Shown: in pieces, positions 37,492 to 48,605 of the stretch
How the letters are laid out: each line of letters opens with the position of its first letter
How positions within the stretch are numbered: the first letter of the stretch is position 1
DNA from: Halopiger goleimassiliensis
GTDB lineage: Archaea > Halobacteriota > Halobacteria > Halobacteriales > Natrialbaceae
Direction of reading: 5' to 3'
DNA: 64,000 bases
Assembly (NCBI RefSeq): GCF_000455345.1
Contig: NZ_HG315690.1
Coordinates: forward strand, 248,001 to 312,000
Program-made: the position numbers and the translations under genes
The notes under the pieces: model-generated
The model's database searches: none
What the model saw: the letters and a program-made list of their open reading frames with translations, nothing else
What the model was told of the DNA's origin: nothing

Positions 37492-38412
37492 CTAACTCGC
37501 TTCGGCCGCTTGCTCCGAGTCGTCCTCGCCCTCGTCGTTCTCGTCGGCGACCGTCTCGACGATCCGCTCGGTCATCTCCTCGCGACTGAGATTGGCCTTG
37601 ACGCCGACGTCCTTGGCCACCGACTGGAGGTCCTGGTAAGACATCACCCCGAGGAAGTCCTCGAGGGTTTCCCGTCTGAGGTCCGCGATGTCTTCGGCGG
37701 ACGGTTGGGAGCCCTCGCCCGCTGCTTCCGCCGTATCGTCGGCATCGGACTCGTCTTCCGCTGCCTCGGTTTCCTCGCTCGGTTCGTCTGCATCGGTCTC
37801 GTCCACGTCGCTCTCGTCCGCCGACTCGTCCTCGGCCGGTTCCGCTTCGGCGGCGTCCTCCTCGAGTTCGTCCTCGTCGTCGGAATCGCCGTCTACCTCC
37901 GCCTCGTCGCCGCTGACGGCGTCGGTAGCGTCCGCGGCGGCCCCGCTGACGCCCTCTGCGACCGACTCCGCGGCGTCTCGAGCGCTCTCGGCCGCGCCAC
38001 TCGATTCTTCGTCGCCCGCTTGGTCGCTCTCCGTGCCGACGTCAGTTTCGACGAGTCCCTCCAGCCCCTCTCCCTCGGTGACGGTCCCGGCGAGGGATTT
38101 GACCGACTCCGTCGCGTCGCTCTCCGTGAGCGTCTCGCGGAACGCGTCCCGAATCGCCGACGCGAGATCCGACTGGATCTCGGAACGGCTCTTCTCGGCT
38201 TCGAGTCCCTCCTCGAGGGTTTCGTGGATCGCGCGACCGATCGCCGTCCCCAGTTCGCGCCCGACGCGTTCGCCGAGTTGGCGGCCGACCGCCGCACCGA
38301 CTTCGCCGCCGTCGATGCTCTCCTCGATGCTGCCGTCGCCCAGCAGATCGGACACCTCGAGTTGGTCGCTGACCTCCTGGGCCACTAACGCTCTGAGTCC
38401 GTCCTCACTCAT
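37492..38412 (-). CDS. Hyperacidic protein with glycine zipper and Rho-N/SAP-like tail (cluster gene 3)
   Basis: A 306-residue protein. Near residues 30-60, GGEVGAAVGRQLGERVGR and the following GTAIGRAI have Gly every fourth or third residue, a glycine-zipper that is also seen in the neighbouring gene 38473-39036. A second helical island reads QSDLASAIRDAFRETL. A roughly 130-residue Glu/Asp/Ser/Ala low-complexity linker follows. The C-terminal 55 residues, including MSYQDLQSVAKDVGVKANLS and EEMTERIVETV, resemble the Rho-N or SAP/LEM nucleic-acid-binding helix pair. Unknown family; unusual combination of oligomerising helix and possible DNA-binding tail. Confidence 0.75.
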   Translation of the reverse strand: MSEDGLRALVAQEVSDQLEVSDLLGDGSIEESIDGGEVGAAVGRQLGERVGRELGTAIGRAIHETLEEGLEAEKSRSEIQSDLASAIRDAFRETLTESDATESVKSLAGTVTEGEGLEGLVETDVGTESDQAGDEESSGAAESARDAAESVAEGVSGAAADATDAVSGDEAEVDGDSDDEDELEEDAAEAEPAEDESADESDVDETDADEPSEETEAAEDESDADDTAEAAGEGSQPSAEDIADLRRETLEDFLGVMSYQDLQSVAKDVGVKANLSREEMTERIVETVADENDEGEDDSEQAAEAS

Positions 38413-38472
38413 CGGGCTCACCTCGAGCGACGGGCCGGAAATCGGCCGGGACGTCAGTTGGCAGTTCCATCG

Positions 38473-39036
38473 TTACTCCTCCTCGGATTCCGATTCGTCG
38501 GAATCCTCCGCCGAGTCCGACGACTGCTCGGTGTTCTCCTCCGATTCGGACGATTCCTCAGTTTCGTCGTCCTCCGTCCCGTCCTCCGCAGATTCTTCCC
38601 CGGCGTCTTCGGCGGATTCCTCGTCGGCTTCTTCGTCGGTCTCCTCGCCGGCGTCCTCGGCTTCTTCCTCGGCCCCCTCCTCGTCCGTCTCCTCCTCGAG
38701 TTCGTCTTCTTGGGCCTCCTTCTCGAGATCTTCCCCCTCGGACTCGTCCTCGAGTTCCTCTTCCTCGGCCTCGGCTTGTTCCTCGGATTCCTCCTCGGCT
38801 TCGTCGGCACCGAGCAGTTCGTCGACGACCATCTTGCCGATCGTCCGCCCGAGGTTCTCGCCGACCTTGCGGCCGATCATCGCTCCGATCTGCCCCCCGA
38901 GAGCCGCCCCCAGAGGTTTGTCCTCGTCGATCTCGTCCTCCCACTGGGTACCCTCGATCAGGTTCTGGACGTCGACGTTCTCGGTGATCTTCTCGTAGTC
39001 GATTCGCTGGGCCACGGTTTCGCCTTCGTCGCTCAT
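38473..39036 (-). CDS. Hyperacidic protein with glycine zipper (cluster gene 2)
   Basis: A 187-residue protein. The first 75 residues hold the ordered part: AQRIDYEKITENVDVQNLIEG, then LGAALGGQIGAMIGRKVGEN and LGRTIGKMVVDELL, a glycine zipper paralogous to that in gene 37492-38412. The remaining 110 residues are almost only Glu, Asp, Ser, Ala and Thr, with the repeats EEAEDAGEE and EESAED. No signal peptide. Glycine zippers pack helices in membranes or in amyloid-like assemblies. Gene starts 2 bp downstream of the preceding gene's stop, so the pair is co-translated. Confidence 0.75.
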   Translation of the reverse strand: MSDEGETVAQRIDYEKITENVDVQNLIEGTQWEDEIDEDKPLGAALGGQIGAMIGRKVGENLGRTIGKMVVDELLGADEAEEESEEQAEAEEEELEDESEGEDLEKEAQEDELEEETDEEGAEEEAEDAGEETDEEADEESAEDAGEESAEDGTEDDETEESSESEENTEQSSDSAEDSDESESEEE

Positions 39037-39038
39037 CG

Positions 39039-40253
39039 TTAGGCTGCCTCCTCCGCTGCATCCGGTTGCTCGCCGTTACCTGCCCCTTCGTCCGGCTCGA
39101 GCTGATCGATGAGTTGCTCGAGCACCTGGCTGACGATCGTCGAGACGATCTCCTCGGTCGGGAAACTCGGTACGAGCCCGCCGAGCAGGTCCTTCATCCA
39201 GCCCGCGAGCCTGGCGAGCGGACCCTCCGACTCGCTTTCTTCCTCGGACTCGTCCTCTTCGGCCTCTCCTTCGGCTTCCTCGGCTTCGTCTTCCGACTCC
39301 TCGCCGTCGGGTTCCTCGGCCTGGTCACCGCCAAACAGCCCGCGGAGCCACGACACCGGCTTGCCCAGAATCGATCGGATCCAGCCGGCGACTCGAGAGA
39401 TGACGCCTCCGGATTCCGACTCTTCGTCTCCCTCTGCGCCCTCGTCGCCACCGATACCCAGCAGCTGGGTGAGCCACTCCTTGGCCTTCCCAGGTGCCGC
39501 CTTGAGTAGCTCCAGGGGCTTGGCGAGCAGTGATTTCGCTTTGTCGAGCATCGCCCCGGGGCCGTCGAGCAACCCGGTCACCGCCGACAGGAGGTTCCCG
39601 AGCAGGTTGTTCCCGCCGGGCCTGGCCGAGACGTCGAGCGTCACGGGATTCAGATTGACCTCGAGACCGAGCAGGTCGAGGAAGAGTCCGTCGAGATCGA
39701 GGTGGAGGACGCCGGATGCGTCGTCACCTTCGTAGACCTCCTCTGCGTCGTCGGCGTGGCCCTCCTCGCGGTCGTCCTCGGCCTCTTCCTCCTCCTCGGT
39801 TTCGGCTTCGTCCTCGGCCTCTTCCTCCTCTTCCTCTTGCTCGGTTTCGGCTTCGTCCTCGGCCTCTTCCTCCTCTTCTCCTTCTTCGATTTCGGCTTCA
39901 TCTTCGCCCTCTTCGTCGACCGCTTCCTCCTCTTCTCCCTCCTGCTCTGTTTCGGCCTCGTCTTCGGGCGCTTCGTCGGCTTGCTCGTCCTCCACTTCAG
40001 CTTCGTCTTCGGTCCCTTCGTCGGTTGCTTCCTCGCTCTCGGCTTCCTCGTCGGCTGCCTGGTCCTCGGCCTGGGCGTCTTCGGCCCCTTCGTCCTCGTC
40101 CGGCTCGGACATCTCCGCCTGTCCGCCGTCAGTTAGAACCGTGAGTTCCGAGTCGGTCGCCTGATCGTCCACCTGACAGTCACTCGAGGCGTCGCCGACT
40201 GGCACGGAATCGGGACACTCCTCGGCGCTGTCATCTCCTAGGTCCGCTGTCAT
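39039..40253 (-). CDS. Hyperacidic protein with amphipathic modules and LDLDGL domain (cluster gene 1)
   Basis: A 404-residue protein. After an N-terminal TVLTDGG motif comes a 130-residue Glu/Ala/Asp/Thr repeat with a 15-residue period. Next is a conserved-looking module, VLHLDLDGLFLDLLGLEVNL followed by VTLDVSARPGGNNLLGNLLSAV, a pattern I have also seen in small secreted bacterial proteins of unknown function. Four amphipathic helices with Trp follow (AKEWLTQLLGI; VAGWIRSILGKPVSWLRGLFG; LAGWMKDLLGG; IVSQVLEQLIDQL) separated by acidic linkers. It has two Cys in the N-terminus and no signal peptide. First gene of the cluster. Confidence 0.78.
   Translation of the reverse strand: MTADLGDDSAEECPDSVPVGDASSDCQVDDQATDSELTVLTDGGQAEMSEPDEDEGAEDAQAEDQAADEEAESEEATDEGTEDEAEVEDEQADEAPEDEAETEQEGEEEEAVDEEGEDEAEIEEGEEEEEAEDEAETEQEEEEEEAEDEAETEEEEEAEDDREEGHADDAEEVYEGDDASGVLHLDLDGLFLDLLGLEVNLNPVTLDVSARPGGNNLLGNLLSAVTGLLDGPGAMLDKAKSLLAKPLELLKAAPGKAKEWLTQLLGIGGDEGAEGDEESESGGVISRVAGWIRSILGKPVSWLRGLFGGDQAEEPDGEESEDEAEEAEGEAEEDESEEESESEGPLARLAGWMKDLLGGLVPSFPTEEIVSTIVSQVLEQLIDQLEPDEGAGNGEQPDAAEEAA
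39796..39885. repeat. 45-bp tandem repeat inside hyperacidic gene
   Basis: The block starting TCGGTTTCGGCTTCGTCCTC at 39796 recurs at 39841, a 45-bp (15-codon) period with near-identity through about 37 bp. It encodes the Glu/Ala/Asp/Thr repeat of the protein at 39039-40253. The shift by whole codons keeps the frame, so copy number can vary by slippage. Less exact copies extend to about 39960. Confidence 0.75.
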
Positions 40254-42163: not shown

Positions 42164-43390
42164 CTACAGCAGTTGGTCGACCAGATCGCTGACGATCCGA
42201 TCGCGATCGAGGTGGTCGGCGACGATTCGTTCCGCGTCCTCCGGGTCGACGTCGCCGTACCAGACGCCGTCGGGGTAGACCGCGACCATCGGTCCGTCGC
42301 CACAGCGGCCGAGACAGGACGACCGCGTGATGCGGGCGTCGCAATGCTCGGAATCGCGGGCTTCCTGTCGTAGGCGCTCGAGGACGGCCGGCGACCCCAT
42401 CCCGGCACAGGTCCGGTTCGTACAGACCGCGACGTGCTTTTCGGGCGCGTCGTGGCTGTGGGGGTCGTCGTCGACGTCCTCGCGATCGGCGTGGGCCTCC
42501 TGGTGGGCCAGCGCGCGCAACATCGCGCGAGCGCCGCCGACGTCCTCCTCGTAACCCTCGAGGCCGACCTTGTACTTGCACGTGTCACAGGACATCTCGA
42601 CGCTGTCGGTTCGGGCCTCCTGCCAGCGATCCGCGAAGACGTCCAGCAGCCGCGAGTCGGTCCCGAGGGGGTCGCCGGCCAGCGCGTCGACGTAGGGGTA
42701 CTCCTCGTCGAACTCCGCGGTCCAGTCCCGGACCCGCTGGGTGAGCACGCCGTCCCCGAGCATGTAGGGGAGAACGACGACCGCATCCGGGCGATGTTTC
42801 GCGAGGCCGTGAAGCGTCTCCTCGAGCGTCGGTTCCGTGACGCCCACGAACGTCGCCTCGACGCGATCGAACGCACGACCCTCGTAGAGCAACCGGGCCA
42901 GTTTGTGGACGTCAGCGTTGGCGTCCGGGTCGCTCGAGCCCCGCCCGCAGAGGACGACCGACACGTCCTCGGTCTCCCGGTCGACCCCGAGGTCGCGTTC
43001 GACGGCGTCGGCCCGATCGTCGAGCAGGTCGACGATCGCCGGATGGATGCCCAGCGGCCCGCCGTTGTCGATCACGAGGTCGTGTTCGGCGCGTGCCTGT
43101 TCGATCGCCAGCGGGACGTCGTTCTTGACGTGGCTCGCGGCGAACAGCGAGCAGTGGACGACGGTGACCCGCGATGCGATCGGTGCCAGTTCCGCGAACG
43201 CCTCCTCGATCGACGGCGTTGCGAGTTCGAGGAAGGCGGGCTGTGCGGGAACCCCGATCCGGGACTCGAGACCCGCCGCGAGCGTCCGAACCTGTTCGTT
43301 CGACTTCTCGCGGCGCGAGCCGTGGCCGACGACCAGGATGGCCTCGTCGTCGCCTCCCGGGGTCGGCGCGGCCGTCTCCGACTGGCTCAT
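42164..43390 (-). CDS. cbiX: Sirohydrochlorin cobaltochelatase fused to a 2Fe-2S thioredoxin-like domain
   Basis: Inserts Co2+ into sirohydrochlorin at the start of the anaerobic cobalamin pathway. The 408-residue protein has a two-lobed CbiX part (residues about 15-265): ILVVGHGSRREKSNEQV with the catalytic His, VTVVHCSLFAASHVKNDVP, and second lobe VSVVLCGRGSSDPDANAD. The C-terminal domain (about 275-408) has CDTCKYK, a His-rich DDDPHSHDAPEKH, then CTNRTCAGMG and SSCLGRCGDGP, the four-Cys pattern of thioredoxin-like 2Fe-2S ferredoxins. The ATG overlaps the previous gene's stop by 4 bases. Confidence 0.94.
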   Translation of the reverse strand: MSQSETAAPTPGGDDEAILVVGHGSRREKSNEQVRTLAAGLESRIGVPAQPAFLELATPSIEEAFAELAPIASRVTVVHCSLFAASHVKNDVPLAIEQARAEHDLVIDNGGPLGIHPAIVDLLDDRADAVERDLGVDRETEDVSVVLCGRGSSDPDANADVHKLARLLYEGRAFDRVEATFVGVTEPTLEETLHGLAKHRPDAVVVLPYMLGDGVLTQRVRDWTAEFDEEYPYVDALAGDPLGTDSRLLDVFADRWQEARTDSVEMSCDTCKYKVGLEGYEEDVGGARAMLRALAHQEAHADREDVDDDPHSHDAPEKHVAVCTNRTCAGMGSPAVLERLRQEARDSEHCDARITRSSCLGRCGDGPMVAVYPDGVWYGDVDPEDAERIVADHLDRDRIVSDLVDQLL

Positions 43391-44130
43391 GGTCCCAGCG
43401 GCGTGCGGTCCTCGATTTCGGCCTGCTCGAGGCTTCGCTCGAGTTTCCGTCGACGACTCGGCGCGTACAGCCCGGTTCGCTCGCAGTCCTCGTACAGCCA
43501 TCCCCCGAAGGCCGGTGCCGCCTCGTCGTCGACGCCGAACCAGAAGCCGCCGGAGGAGGTCGTGCCGAGGTCGCCGTATGGTGTCTCCACGGGGCAGGCT
43601 TCGAGTAACGTCTGGACGCGTTCGAGCAGGGCCCGCTCCTCGTGGACGAACGAGATGCCGACGGTCCCGCTGGAGGACTTGAAACAAACCGTGCCACAGC
43701 CCTCGAGGAGGCCACGCAGCAGTTCCCGCTCGTGGCTCGAGAAGGCCTCGAACCGGTAGTTGCCCCGGCCGTCGACGGGGAGTCCGAGGCGGCTGGTCCG
43801 ACCGAGAAGGTCGTCCTCGTCGCCCGCAGCCGCCGTCACCGCGACCGTGTACTCGTCCTCGGTCCGCGTGATCGACGGATCGTGGGCGTACTCGTGGGTC
43901 GTCCTGTCGTGATCGACCTCGCCACCCGCAACGGCCGCGAGCACCTGCGCTGACGCCTCGTCGTTGGCGACGACCTCGAGACCGTCGTCGCTCACCGTTC
44001 CGCTGCCGGCGACGTGGCCCCAGAAGTACGCCGTCGCCGGATGGCCGGCGAGCGGATCGGTCGGGGCGTCGATCTCGAGCAGGCGGTCGCCCCCGTCGCT
44101 CGAATCACCTGGCGTTTCGGCGTCGCTCAT
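43387..44130 (-). CDS. LAGLIDADG-like conserved protein of the cobalamin operon
   Basis: A 247-residue protein of unknown function. Two similar halves each carry a LAGLIDADG-like motif: YFWGHVAGSGTVSDDG at about residues 35-50 and LLRGLLEGCGTVCFKSSSG at about 137-155, followed by strands (GISFVHEE) and VQTLLEACPV as in homing-endonuclease-fold domains. The catalytic acids are mostly replaced by Ser or Cys (GSG, GCG), so nuclease activity is doubtful and a nucleic-acid-binding or metabolic role is likelier. Overlaps both neighbours by 4 bases (ferredoxin gene, cbiX), so it is an integral operon member. The fold assignment is by eye. Confidence 0.75.
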   Translation of the reverse strand: MSDAETPGDSSDGGDRLLEIDAPTDPLAGHPATAYFWGHVAGSGTVSDDGLEVVANDEASAQVLAAVAGGEVDHDRTTHEYAHDPSITRTEDEYTVAVTAAAGDEDDLLGRTSRLGLPVDGRGNYRFEAFSSHERELLRGLLEGCGTVCFKSSSGTVGISFVHEERALLERVQTLLEACPVETPYGDLGTTSSGGFWFGVDDEAAPAFGGWLYEDCERTGLYAPSRRRKLERSLEQAEIEDRTPLGP

Positions 44131-44393
44131 TCGTCCACCTCCCGGACGACGATGGCGTCCGTCGGACAGGCCGCCGCGGCCTGCTGGGCCTCGTCGATGC
44201 GGTCGTCGTCGAACGTGGCGACGACCCGTTCGTCGGTGTCGGCGACCTGGCCCTCGCAGTCGTAGACTGGATCCGCGTCCGGATCGACCGTCGCGAGGCC
44301 GTCCTCGCCCTCGACAAAGCGCGGGTCGCGGGTCAGACAGGCGAAGATGCCGTCACAGGCCGCTTTCTCGATGGTGACTTCGTATCGTGGCAT
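44127..44393 (-). CDS. Ferredoxin-like protein of the cobalamin operon
   Basis: An 88-residue single-domain ferredoxin. Motifs CDGIFACLTRDPRFVEG near the N-terminus and AAAACPTDAIVV at the end fit the bacterial-type ferredoxin fold with one 3Fe-4S or 4Fe-4S cluster; an additional Cys sits in YDCEGQ. It probably supplies electrons for a reductive step in corrin ring formation, such as cobalt reduction or the ring contraction by CbiH. Encoded between the second cbiH and the LAGLIDADG-like gene, overlapping the latter by ATGA. Confidence 0.85.
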   Translation of the reverse strand: MPRYEVTIEKAACDGIFACLTRDPRFVEGEDGLATVDPDADPVYDCEGQVADTDERVVATFDDDRIDEAQQAAAACPTDAIVVREVDE

Positions 44394-44395
44394 GG

Positions 44396-45499
44396 CTAGT
44401 AGTCGTACTTCGTCTCGTAGCCTCGGGGTGTGACCATCCGGTCGTCCCAGACGTAGGTGTCCTCGGTGCCGACGACGATCGTCGTCGTCATGTCGATGAT
44501 CTCGCTCTCGCCTAAGTCCTCGAGTTCGGCGAGTTCGGTGATCATCACCTGCTCGTCCTCGCGACCGGCACCGTGGACGATGCCGACGGGCGTGTCGGGG
44601 TCCCGGTGCGTGAGGAGGATCTCGCAGGCCTTCTGGAAGTTCTCGCGGCGCTTGCGGCTCCACGGGTTGTAGATCGTGATCGCGAAGTTCTCGCTCGACA
44701 CGGCGTGTAGGCGCGACTCGATCTCCGGCATCGGCACGAGGTGGTCCGACAGCGAGATCGAGACCGTGTCGTTCACGAGGGGAGCTCCGAGGCGGGCCGC
44801 ACAGGACTGGGCCGCCGGAACACCGGGCACGACCTCGAAGTCGACCATCGAAGCCGTCGCCCCCTTCGACTCGAGGATCTCGAGGGCCAGTCCGGCCAGC
44901 GCGTAGACGTTGGGGTCGCCGCTGCCGACGATGGCGACGTCGTTGCCCGCCAGCGCCCGGTCGATCGACTCCTCCGTGCGGGAGACCTCGCCACACATCG
45001 GCGTGTCGTAGATGTCGTCGGCCTGCTCGGTGATCTCGTCCGGAATGAGTTCGATGTAGGTCGTGTAGCCGACGATGTGGTCGGCTTCGAGCAGGGCGTC
45101 CTTTGCGCGCTCGGTCATCCCCTCCGGATGGCCGGGTCCGAGGCCGACGGCGACCAGTCGGCCGGGATCGGCATCGAAGTCCTCGATCGTCGCGCCGACC
45201 TCCTTTTCGTTGCTGGAGTCGTCGTCGGAACTCGAGGCACCGCACTTCGACCCGCTCGAGGACGACGAACTCGAAGCGCCGCATTTGGAGCTACTCGAAT
45301 CGTCGTTGGTCGAAGCGCCGCACTTTGAACCTGAACTCGAGTCAGCGCTGGAACTCGAGGGACCAGCTTCGGTTTCAGTTCCGGTGTCGCTCGAGGCCCC
45401 GCATTTGGATGAGCTCGAAGTCTCCGTTTCAGTGTCGGTCGATGCGCCACAGTTGGATGTCGATTCGCCGTCAGCGTCGGAGTCGATGTCCGTGCTCAT
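44396..45499 (-). CDS. cbiH: Cobalt-precorrin-3B C17-methyltransferase with Cys-repeat N-terminus
   Basis: SAM-dependent tetrapyrrole methylase (CbiH/CobJ) that methylates C-17 and contracts the corrin ring. The catalytic part begins near residue 113 with LVAVGLGPGHPEGMT and contains VGSGDPNVYALAG, EVVPGVPAAQS, FAITIYNPWSRKR and TTIVVGTED. Residues 1-100 are a unique low-complexity Ser/Thr/Asp tail with five CGAS repeats, with Cys at 17, 33, 60, 73 and 86; these could hold metal or an iron-sulfur cluster. The ATG at 45499 starts the tail. Second of two CbiH paralogues in tandem. Confidence 0.93.
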   Translation of the reverse strand: MSTDIDSDADGESTSNCGASTDTETETSSSSKCGASSDTGTETEAGPSSSSADSSSGSKCGASTNDDSSSSKCGASSSSSSSGSKCGASSSDDDSSNEKEVGATIEDFDADPGRLVAVGLGPGHPEGMTERAKDALLEADHIVGYTTYIELIPDEITEQADDIYDTPMCGEVSRTEESIDRALAGNDVAIVGSGDPNVYALAGLALEILESKGATASMVDFEVVPGVPAAQSCAARLGAPLVNDTVSISLSDHLVPMPEIESRLHAVSSENFAITIYNPWSRKRRENFQKACEILLTHRDPDTPVGIVHGAGREDEQVMITELAELEDLGESEIIDMTTTIVVGTEDTYVWDDRMVTPRGYETKYDY

Positions 45500-45517: not shown

Positions 45518-46357
45518 TTAGAAGTCGTCGACGTCACGTCCGCCGCGCGGGGTGACGAGGTACGTTCGATCGTCGTTGCACCAGGTTTCGGTCTCGTGGT
45601 TGCCGATGATCAGCGAGGTGCCCATTCCCGACACCTTGTCGTCGTGGTCGGCGGCCTCGCCCAGCGTCGTGATGAAGTGGCTCTCGCCGTTGCGGCCGGC
45701 GTCCGCGCGGCCCGCGTCGTTGACGATCGCCACGTAGGCGTCGTCGGTCCGCTCCTCCCGGACGATCTCGACCGCCTGCTCGTAGTTGCGCCAGCAGTTG
45801 TAGAGGACGATCACGAAGTCGCTGATCGCGGCGGCGCGCAGCTTCTCCTCGATTTCGTCCCAGCCGCGCCACTTGTCCGACAGCGAGACCGTACAGAAGT
45901 CGTTACACAGCGGCGCGCCGACGTTCGCCGCGCCGCCCAGCGCCGCCGTCATGCCGGGGACGACCTCGATCGGCACGTCCGTCGCGTCGTCCTCCTCGGC
46001 CATCTTGAAGATGAGGTCGGACTTGCCGTAGACGGAGGGGTCGCCGCCCGAGACGTGAGCCACGTCTTTGCCCTCGCGGACGTAGTCGAACGCCGCGCGG
46101 GCGAGTTCGATCTGTCGCCCCATCGTCGAGCGAACGATCTCCTGCTCGAAGCCATCGTCTCGGGTGGCGATCCCGTCCTCGTCGGTTCGTTCCTCCGGTG
46201 GAATCGTTCCGTCGGCCCGCAGGAACTCCTGATAGAGGCTCGAAGCGATGACCACGTCCGCGGACTCGATGACCCGCTTGGCTTTCACCGTCATGTGATC
46301 CGGGAGGCCGGGACCGATACCAACGACGTACAGCGTGCCACGGCCCTGCTCAGTCAC
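45518..46357 (-). CDS. cbiH: Cobalt-precorrin methyltransferase, second CbiH/CobJ paralogue
   Basis: A 279-residue SAM-dependent precorrin methylase. LYVVGIGPGLPDHMTVKAKRVI opens the domain; HVSGGDPSVYG, EVVPGMTAALGGAANVGAPL, FVIVLYNCWRNYEQ and LIIGNHETETW follow. It resembles the neighbouring CbiH in each motif, so they are paralogues, though one may serve another methylation step. The GTG at 46357 is preferred over an ATG at 46429 because a TATA-like TTTTATT (46428-46435) would place transcription start near 46408, after that ATG. First gene of the cbiH-cbiX transcript. Confidence 0.9.
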   Translation of the reverse strand: MTEQGRGTLYVVGIGPGLPDHMTVKAKRVIESADVVIASSLYQEFLRADGTIPPEERTDEDGIATRDDGFEQEIVRSTMGRQIELARAAFDYVREGKDVAHVSGGDPSVYGKSDLIFKMAEEDDATDVPIEVVPGMTAALGGAANVGAPLCNDFCTVSLSDKWRGWDEIEEKLRAAAISDFVIVLYNCWRNYEQAVEIVREERTDDAYVAIVNDAGRADAGRNGESHFITTLGEAADHDDKVSGMGTSLIIGNHETETWCNDDRTYLVTPRGGRDVDDF

Positions 46358-46427
46358 GCCCGAATCACCCGATCCGATCGAACGGTTTGTCGTCTCTGGT
46401 GCACGTGTAGCACAACCACTGCGTTCC

Positions 46428-46440
46428 AATAAAACAATTA
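46428..46440 (-). promoter_or_regulatory. Promoter of the cbiH-cbiX operon
   Basis: Leftward TATA-like GTTTTATT (reverse complement of 46428-46435) in an AT-rich pocket (46425-46470), giving a start near 46408 and a leader of about 50 nt to the GTG. Room for a cobalamin riboswitch is lacking and no B12-box-like sequence was seen, which fits archaea, where B12 riboswitches are rare. Confidence 0.45.
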
Positions 46441-47639: not shown

Positions 47640-48605
47640 TTAGCGGCCGATCGCCACCGTCACCTCGTCCTCGTAGCTCATCTTCTCGAGAACCAGTTCC
47701 CCCTCGCGGCCGCCTGCGATCGCCGACGCCTCGGAGACGCCGGGCCAGCCGATCAGTTCCTTGGACTTCGAGGGCGTCGGCCCCTCGTGATCGAGCAGGG
47801 TCTCCTTGTCGAAGGTGACGACGCCCAGATCGAGTTCCTGGGCCGCCTCGAGCAGTCCCTCCTCGTCTTCCTTCCGGGTCGCGGTGCCGACGAACTCCAC
47901 GTCCTCGAAATCGTAGTCGGTTCGCTCGAGGGCTTCCTCCCACGCGGCGAGGAAGGCGTCCTTGCTGGCCCCCGAAACGCTACCCGTCCCGAGGACGACG
48001 CCGTCGTCTTTGTTGCGCTTGAGGACGGTCACGTCGTCGCCGACCAGCACGGCTTTCGGGCCGTCGAGTCGGGCAACTGGCCCGAGATCGTCGTCGAGAA
48101 CGGCGAGATTCGTCTTCACCGTGGAGTCGCCGTTGACGACGTGGGCGTCCATCGCCTTCGCCTTGGACTCGACGCCCTGCTTGCCGGCGGCCTCCGAGGC
48201 CGTTGTCATCGCCGGTACGGCCCCCATCGTCGCCAGGTCCTGGGCGACCTGGTTGGCCCCGTGGTGGCCGCCGGTGATCGGGATCGCCCACGTCAACTCC
48301 TCGTCGACGACGCAGATGGCAGGGTCATCCCACTTGTCGTCGAGCAGGTGAGCCGTCTTCCGCATGGCGATTCCCGAAGCCATGAGACCGACGAAGCAGT
48401 CGTACTCGCCCCAGTGCTCCTCGAAGACGTCACCGTGGTACTCGACGATATCGATCGTTTCGTAGCGATCCTCGAGTTCCGCCTCGATCTCCTCGGCGGT
48501 CTCCATCTTGCGCTCGAAAGCGACGATCGCGATCTCCTCCGCGACCTCGCCGTCGCTGTCCGGCGTCGCACAGTGGCCGCCGTCCTCGTCCGTTCCTGAA
48601 CTCAT
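47640..48605 (-). CDS. cbiG: Cobalt-precorrin 5A hydrolase
   Basis: Opens the delta-lactone of cobalt-precorrin-5A, releasing acetaldehyde in the anaerobic cobalamin pathway. The 321-residue protein has the N-terminal CbiG domain with FVGLMASGIAMRKTAHLL and the central AIPITGGHHGANQVAQDLA block, followed by the C-terminal domain (about 200-321) with GTGSVSGASKDAFLAAWEEAL and FVGTATRKEDEEGLLEAAQEL. The ATG at 48605 opens an acidic, Ser/Gly tail before the domain. It is separated from the cbiH operon by the oppositely oriented lipoprotein gene and has its own promoter. Confidence 0.94.
   Translation of the reverse strand: MSSGTDEDGGHCATPDSDGEVAEEIAIVAFERKMETAEEIEAELEDRYETIDIVEYHGDVFEEHWGEYDCFVGLMASGIAMRKTAHLLDDKWDDPAICVVDEELTWAIPITGGHHGANQVAQDLATMGAVPAMTTASEAAGKQGVESKAKAMDAHVVNGDSTVKTNLAVLDDDLGPVARLDGPKAVLVGDDVTVLKRNKDDGVVLGTGSVSGASKDAFLAAWEEALERTDYDFEDVEFVGTATRKEDEEGLLEAAQELDLGVVTFDKETLLDHEGPTPSKSKELIGWPGVSEASAIAGGREGELVLEKMSYEDEVTVAIGR

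Follow-up and report, generated by a model that had tools for sequence, protein, structure and literature searches.

A conserved cysteine-repeat tail on the haloarchaeal ring-contraction enzyme CbiH2 and its possible role as a thiol arm

The window studied here is a stretch of 64,000 nt from Halopiger goleimassiliensis (contig NZ_HG315690.1, positions 248,001 to 312,000). Its minus strand carries, in locus order, cbiG (47640..48605; profile match), the CbiH paralogue CbiH1 (HVO_B0058 type; 45518..46429; ORF list and profile match), which has no Cys-repeat tail, the tailed paralogue cbiH2 (44396..45499; 367 aa), a small ferredoxin gene (Fer4_15 domain match; 44127..44393), a gene for a 247-aa protein of unknown function (43387..44130; domain search) and the cobaltochelatase gene cbiX (42164..43390), whose product ends in a [2Fe-2S] thioredoxin-like domain (42215-42445; domain match). 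By position, the 247-aa protein and the ferredoxin match HVO_B0055 and HVO_B0056; PMC8305020 counts these, along with two more genes, as unassigned members of the cobalamin cluster that might fill the cbiD/cbiJ gaps. The ligand set of the ferredoxin is odd and might suit a [3Fe-4S] or an Asp-ligated cluster: a C-x5-C stands close to the N-terminus, where Ile takes the place of the customary second Cys, and one lone CP motif is found close to the C-terminus. Elsewhere in the window, three adjacent predicted proteins (37492-40253, minus strand) are very acidic and rich in Glu, Asp and Ala.

CbiH2 is annotated as the cobalt-factor III C17-methyltransferase and ring contraction enzyme of HVO_B0057 type based on its matches to TIGR01466, PF00590, CobJ (3nut) and the Thermus CbiH (2zvb). 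It reaches 310.7 bits against TIGR01466 (CobJ/CbiH precorrin-3B C17-methyltransferase; cutoff 246.35; residues 115-362), while the neighbouring CbiH1 stays below the cutoff (196.6 bits). Judged by score and position, the tailed paralogue is the one of CbiH2 (HVO_B0057) type. Its AlphaFold model, a monomer with a mean pLDDT of 65.8, shows the CobJ fold and matches both 3nut and 2zvb. The profile matches place the methylase core at residues 114-362 (44414..45160), with the domain starting at residue 114-115. It is preceded by a conserved linker, VGATIEDFDADP (residues 101-112; 45164..45199; defined by orthologue comparison), and by an N-terminal tail (residues 1-100; 45200..45499) that is predicted to be disordered (pLDDT about 34-44). 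The tail consists almost purely of S, T, D, E, A, G, N, K, P and Q plus five Cys. Each Cys is preceded by Asn (first unit) or Lys (the other four) and followed by Gly-Ala-Ser and one further Ser or Thr, i.e., N-C17-GAST (45440..45454), K-C33-GASS (45392..45406), K-C60-GAST (45311..45325), K-C73-GASS (45272..45286) and K-C86-GASS (45233..45247). The original prediction had named these five CGAS(S/T) units ahead of the methylase, and the translation reproduces them exactly.

The tail is not a DNA tandem repeat, since Tandem Repeats Finder reported 0 rows and the copies of a 30-nt direct repeat share no more than 60-80% of their letters with the reference copy. Within the source genome, a strict double-CGA pattern is matched by CbiH2 alone, and across 61 genomes its matches are mainly CbiH2 tails. 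The remaining matches listed (in G006, G033 and G038) look non-coding or due to chance and were rejected as further carriers of the repeat. One of them, a 37-bp tandem repeat array (G006:C7:244701-244896), is a chance match to the DNA pattern with no apparent relation to CbiH. Two extra single matches in the source genome, a KCGAC in a protein that looks radical-SAM-like by eye and a short frame, were set aside as well.

We then studied how the tail is conserved among haloarchaea. A CbiH2 core was found in 127 of 242 genomes (E <= 1e-60), and all 127 tails were read. Tail starts were set by script as the first ATG that yields a tail of low hydrophobicity; unfiltered, the choice took upstream ATGs in a few loci. 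A tail with one to five Cys is present in 124/127 proteins (1, 2, 3, 4 and 5 Cys in 4, 6, 42, 63 and 9 genomes, respectively), and all 80 named loci retrieved by protein search carry two to five. The 124 tails have a mean length of 92 residues, neighbouring Cys are 10-48 residues apart (median 15; 315 intervals), and the core begins 25-41 residues after the last tail Cys. Gly follows 430 of the 439 tail Cys (CGA 315, CGG 99, CGS 12, CGT 2, CGD 1, CGQ 1); the other nine contexts are CTA (7), CAN (1) and CRA (1). The resulting unit consensus is S-x-S-K-C-G-A-S-S. One lineage (L184, L185, L187, L189) has the unit changed to GGCTA in one or two copies, with the Cys kept and the CG context gone.

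Cys makes up 3.9% of the tail residues (439/11,392; 124 tails) versus 0.6% in 12 long ORFs of the window (44/6,892). The tails contain 430 CG dipeptides, whereas 1000 shuffles gave 45 on average and 68 at most; this is no strict probability because the tails are related sequences. Within 60 disjoint pairs of relatives, aligned tail Cys are identical in 95% versus 70-80% for S, T, D, A, E and G; among the unit residues, Cys is best kept while K and N are worst. The number of units differs in 30 of the 60 pairs and the linkers vary too. Selection therefore acts on the tail Cys rather than on their register, and since the Cys were kept while the remaining tail changed freely, they are functional. 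The Cys conservation, the CG shuffles, the sister pairs and the tandem repeat search together rule out chance or a local artefact. That is, this is a rapidly evolving disordered tail with clear selection on a single residue type. The conservation of Cys positions among haloarchaeal CbiH N-termini, which the original prediction had set as a check, does not hold in register; what is kept, in 124/124 tailed orthologues, are the Cys units themselves.

A further Cys is associated with the tail. Core position 169 (codon 44993..44995) falls within PMCGEV. In the core alignments it is occupied by Cys in all tailed proteins (124/124) and by Gly in all untailed ones, whether haloarchaeal (3/3) or outgroup (14/14); the 80 named loci all have Cys here as well. 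Nine further core columns split tailed from untailed proteins, and of these columns only 169 gains a Cys; the split at 169 thus partly reflects shared ancestry. In the AlphaFold model, Cys169 lies between a strand (162-166) and a helix (171-183). The position aligns to the GKRCG segment of NirE (2ybo), by count about NirE residues 71-75, and PMC4731766 assigns a flexible substrate-binding loop to NirE residues 70-80, which connect beta-3 and helix D. On this alignment, the Cys169 loop would correspond to that loop. The alignments show no Cys at the equivalent position of the Thermus CbiH (2zvb) or CobJ (3nut).

The three untailed haloarchaeal proteins (G081, G085, G183; 3/127) have N-terminal stretches of 18-27 residues with zero Cys. 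Among all 242 genomes, COX1 (PF00115) is missing in only four, namely these three and G153, which is outside the 127 genomes with a CbiH2 match. Tail absence hence coincides with absence of the heme-copper oxidase, i.e., it is seen in 3/3 genomes without COX1 versus 0/124 with it. Cytochrome bd is retained in G081, G085 and G153 and lacking in G183; contact with O2 is therefore possible in untailed genomes, two of the three having cytochrome bd. No tail was found in the 14 outgroup CbiH matches that were read; two outgroup families with long reading frames (446-496 aa) lie outside this set. In a gene tree of 56 of the 141 core sequences, a single branch with support 97/99 separates all tailed CbiH2 from the rest, to which the three untailed haloarchaeal proteins belong. 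Since tail and Cys169 sit on this one branch, the Cys169 (124/124 tailed versus 0/17 untailed) and oxidase correlations are essentially one evolutionary event, and the tree fits a single gain of both tail and Cys169.

The gene neighbourhood was surveyed in 91 loci over 5.5 kb, all with a CbiH2-core match and four of them outgroups, using the window's proteins as queries. The complete set of cbiG, cbiH1, cbiH2, ferredoxin, 247-aa protein and cbiX with Fe-S domain is found in 72/91 loci. Nearly all tailed loci have a ferredoxin gene after cbiH2, as against 0/3 untailed haloarchaeal loci. That is, the oxidase-lacking loci L179, L182 and L183 have cbiG, cbiH1, cbiH2 and cbiX and show neither ferredoxin nor 247-aa protein nor the Fe-S domain of CbiX; in L183 (1918-3039, minus strand) and L179 (3458-4390, plus strand) CbiX ends in a long His-rich stretch and has no [2Fe-2S] domain. 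The tailed loci L106 and L108 have no detectable ferredoxin. For L181/L300, both from one genome (G098), the ferredoxin is seen while 247-aa protein and CbiX are not nearby; the Fe-S domain of CbiX was not seen in L101, CbiG was not seen in four loci, and L046, L064 and L078 are cut short. None of the 14 genomes tested has CbiD or CbiJ, whether or not its CbiH2 is tailed, so that these two proteins do not separate the two groups. In addition, 247-aa protein and ferredoxin are unlikely to be universal fillers of the CbiD and CbiJ gaps, since neither is present in L179, L182 and L183, which come from genomes where CbiD and CbiJ are missing too.

It is a long-standing question how the B12 pathway that is called anaerobic operates in aerobes. 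Cobalt-precorrin-4 is two electrons below cobalt-factor III, and we know of no settled source of these electrons at ring contraction outside CbiH60. For the latter, Moore et al. 2013 (J Biol Chem) are reported to have found that the conversion of cobalt-factor III requires both DTT and an intact [4Fe-4S] centre. In the pathway account of PMC7242693, sirohydrochlorin (precorrin-2 minus two electrons) is turned into cobalt-factor II by CbiX, then into cobalt-factor III by CbiL and into cobalt-precorrin-4 by CbiH.

We propose, with a probability of roughly 40%, that a tethered thiol arm and Cys169 supply or relay the two electrons from cobalt-factor III to cobalt-precorrin-4. The CbiH2 tail would be an intrinsically disordered arm that equips the ring-contracting enzyme with thiols, each (K/N)CG(A/G)S unit acting as an independent single-Cys site. 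The linker of at least 25 residues would let any unit reach the substrate pocket, either with its own arm or with that of the partner subunit in a homodimer. The minimal dithiol would then pair a single tail Cys with Cys169 of the flexible substrate-binding loop, the other units being spare, and would donate or relay the two electrons; in a cell that respires O2, one would expect the oxidised form, cobalt-factor III. The arm might then be reduced again with electrons from the adjacent ferredoxin or from thiols of the cell. With several units the local thiol concentration would rise, so that their number would be free to drift, and tails with one Cys (4/124) fit the dithiol as well because a single tail Cys could still pair with Cys169. 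The observations behind this proposal are the conservation of units and Cys169, their co-occurrence, the association with one oxidase-bearing lineage and the gene neighbourhood.

Other observations argue against a thiol arm. Thermus is an aerobe, and its CbiH has no Cys at the 169 equivalent. The tailed L106 and L108 show no ferredoxin, cytochrome bd is kept in two of the three untailed genomes, and the link between tail, Cys169 and oxidase comes down to one branch. Furthermore, a simple thiol donor would not call for so strong a preference for Lys/Asn before and Gly-Ala/Gly-Ser after the Cys.

The strongest rival is that each S-x-S-K-C-G-A-S unit is a short linear docking motif for a partner (ferredoxin, the [2Fe-2S] domain of CbiX, CbiL or CbiG) and the tail a multivalent scaffold that channels oxygen-sensitive intermediates. 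The conserved context around the Cys (S at -4 and -2, K at -1, G at +1, A/G at +2, S at +3), the independent units of variable number and the co-occurrence of the tail with ferredoxin, 247-aa protein and CbiX Fe-S domain would all suit docking. However, the context decays to CTA, CGQ or CAN in some lineages while the Cys stays, the best-kept residue of the unit is the Cys and not K or N, and the tail is retained in the two loci without detectable ferredoxin. We consider docking repeats unlikely, if still a serious contender.

Next, the tail Cys could serve as axial cobalt ligands that hold the corrinoid substrate or product, shield it from O2 and pass it on. Such a ligand needs a single-Cys site only, and PMC8123684 describes a Cys as axial ligand to the corrin cobalt in the transporter BtuM; the intermediates already hold cobalt at the CbiH step (PMC7242693). 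Yet an arm of this kind leaves Cys169 unexplained, and we judge it to be quite improbable.

The original prediction had suggested a tail that may bind cobalt or an Fe-S cluster or mediate handover from CbiX; the several Cys per tail and the Fe-S domain of CbiH60 speak for this idea. The prediction had also stated that the lone Cys resemble no known zinc pattern, and this is borne out: there is no CxxC or CxC, and with a minimum Cys-Cys spacing of 10 among the 315 pairs a CxxC-type metal or Fe-S site (zinc ribbon or Fe-S motif) was rejected. The same spacing, the variable register, the four tails with a single Cys and the virtual absence of His make metal or cluster binding a poor fit, and the locus has its Fe-S domain on CbiX itself. 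Handover from CbiX finds no support because CbiL acts between CbiX and CbiH, cobalt thus being already in the ring (PMC7242693). We regard free metal or cluster binding and CbiX handover as very unlikely; a redox or thiol role would fit the tail better.

Modification of the KCG-context Cys is less probable still: KCG in a low-complexity chain is reminiscent of HvfA/bufferin precursors, but the MNIO enzyme family PF05114 (DUF692), on which the enzyme search was focused, is absent in 61/61 genomes of the family, with 2/14 control genomes positive. A neutral low-complexity tail with Cys by chance or repeat expansion is hardly credible, since, although disordered Ser/Asp/Glu-rich tails are common in halophiles and the unit number drifts, it is contradicted by the Cys conservation, the context tests and the lack of a tandem DNA repeat.

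Tailed CbiH2 is a known enzyme in a new form that is strongly conserved. We found no prior description of the Cys tail in the literature searched; the main text of PMC8305020 on CbiH2 is silent about it. The thiol-arm proposal makes tail Cys and Cys169 a class-wide, simple and mutable candidate for the electron supply at ring contraction. It is conceivable, if on balance doubtful, that the drifting single-Cys arm (SxSKCGAS) and Cys169 are a haloarchaeal invention, i.e., a built-in reductant for ring contraction gained on becoming aerobic together with ferredoxin, 247-aa protein and Fe-S-tailed CbiX.

Among known systems, bufferin/HvfA peptides share the repeated KCG in a low-complexity chain; the CbiH2 repeats differ in being the tail of a cytosolic enzyme, in genomes of which 0/61 have the MNIO enzyme. 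Class I ribonucleotide reductase re-reduces its active site by a mobile C-terminal Cys tail. The analogy is one of working and not of homology, and those arms use a Cys pair, in contrast to the lone CbiH2 units at least 10 residues apart. CobJ (3nut) and the Thermus CbiH (2zvb) share core fold and sequence with CbiH2, while the matched chains have neither such a tail nor a Cys at the 169 equivalent. The closest parallel in family and step is CbiH60 of Priestia (Bacillus) megaterium (O87689), whose host is likewise an aerobe with the cobalt-early route and an extra redox appendage on CbiH, Fe-S and DTT reportedly being needed. Haloferax CbiH2 has 45% identity to the N-terminal part of CbiH60 (PMC8305020, Table 3), and the same source lists CbiH2 (HVO_B0057) as isofunctional with CbiH60 and CbiH1 (HVO_B0058) as candidate for the missing C1-methylase. 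The appendage of CbiH60 is a C-terminal extension, whereas haloarchaeal CbiH2 stops at the core (match end 362/367, no CbiH60-type Fe-S extension or further domain) and has the N-terminal Cys-repeat tail instead. If the thiol arm is real, haloarchaea and Priestia would have dealt in different ways with the same problem of an oxygen-sensitive, cobalt-early B12 pathway, the latter by means of an Fe-S domain at the C-terminus.
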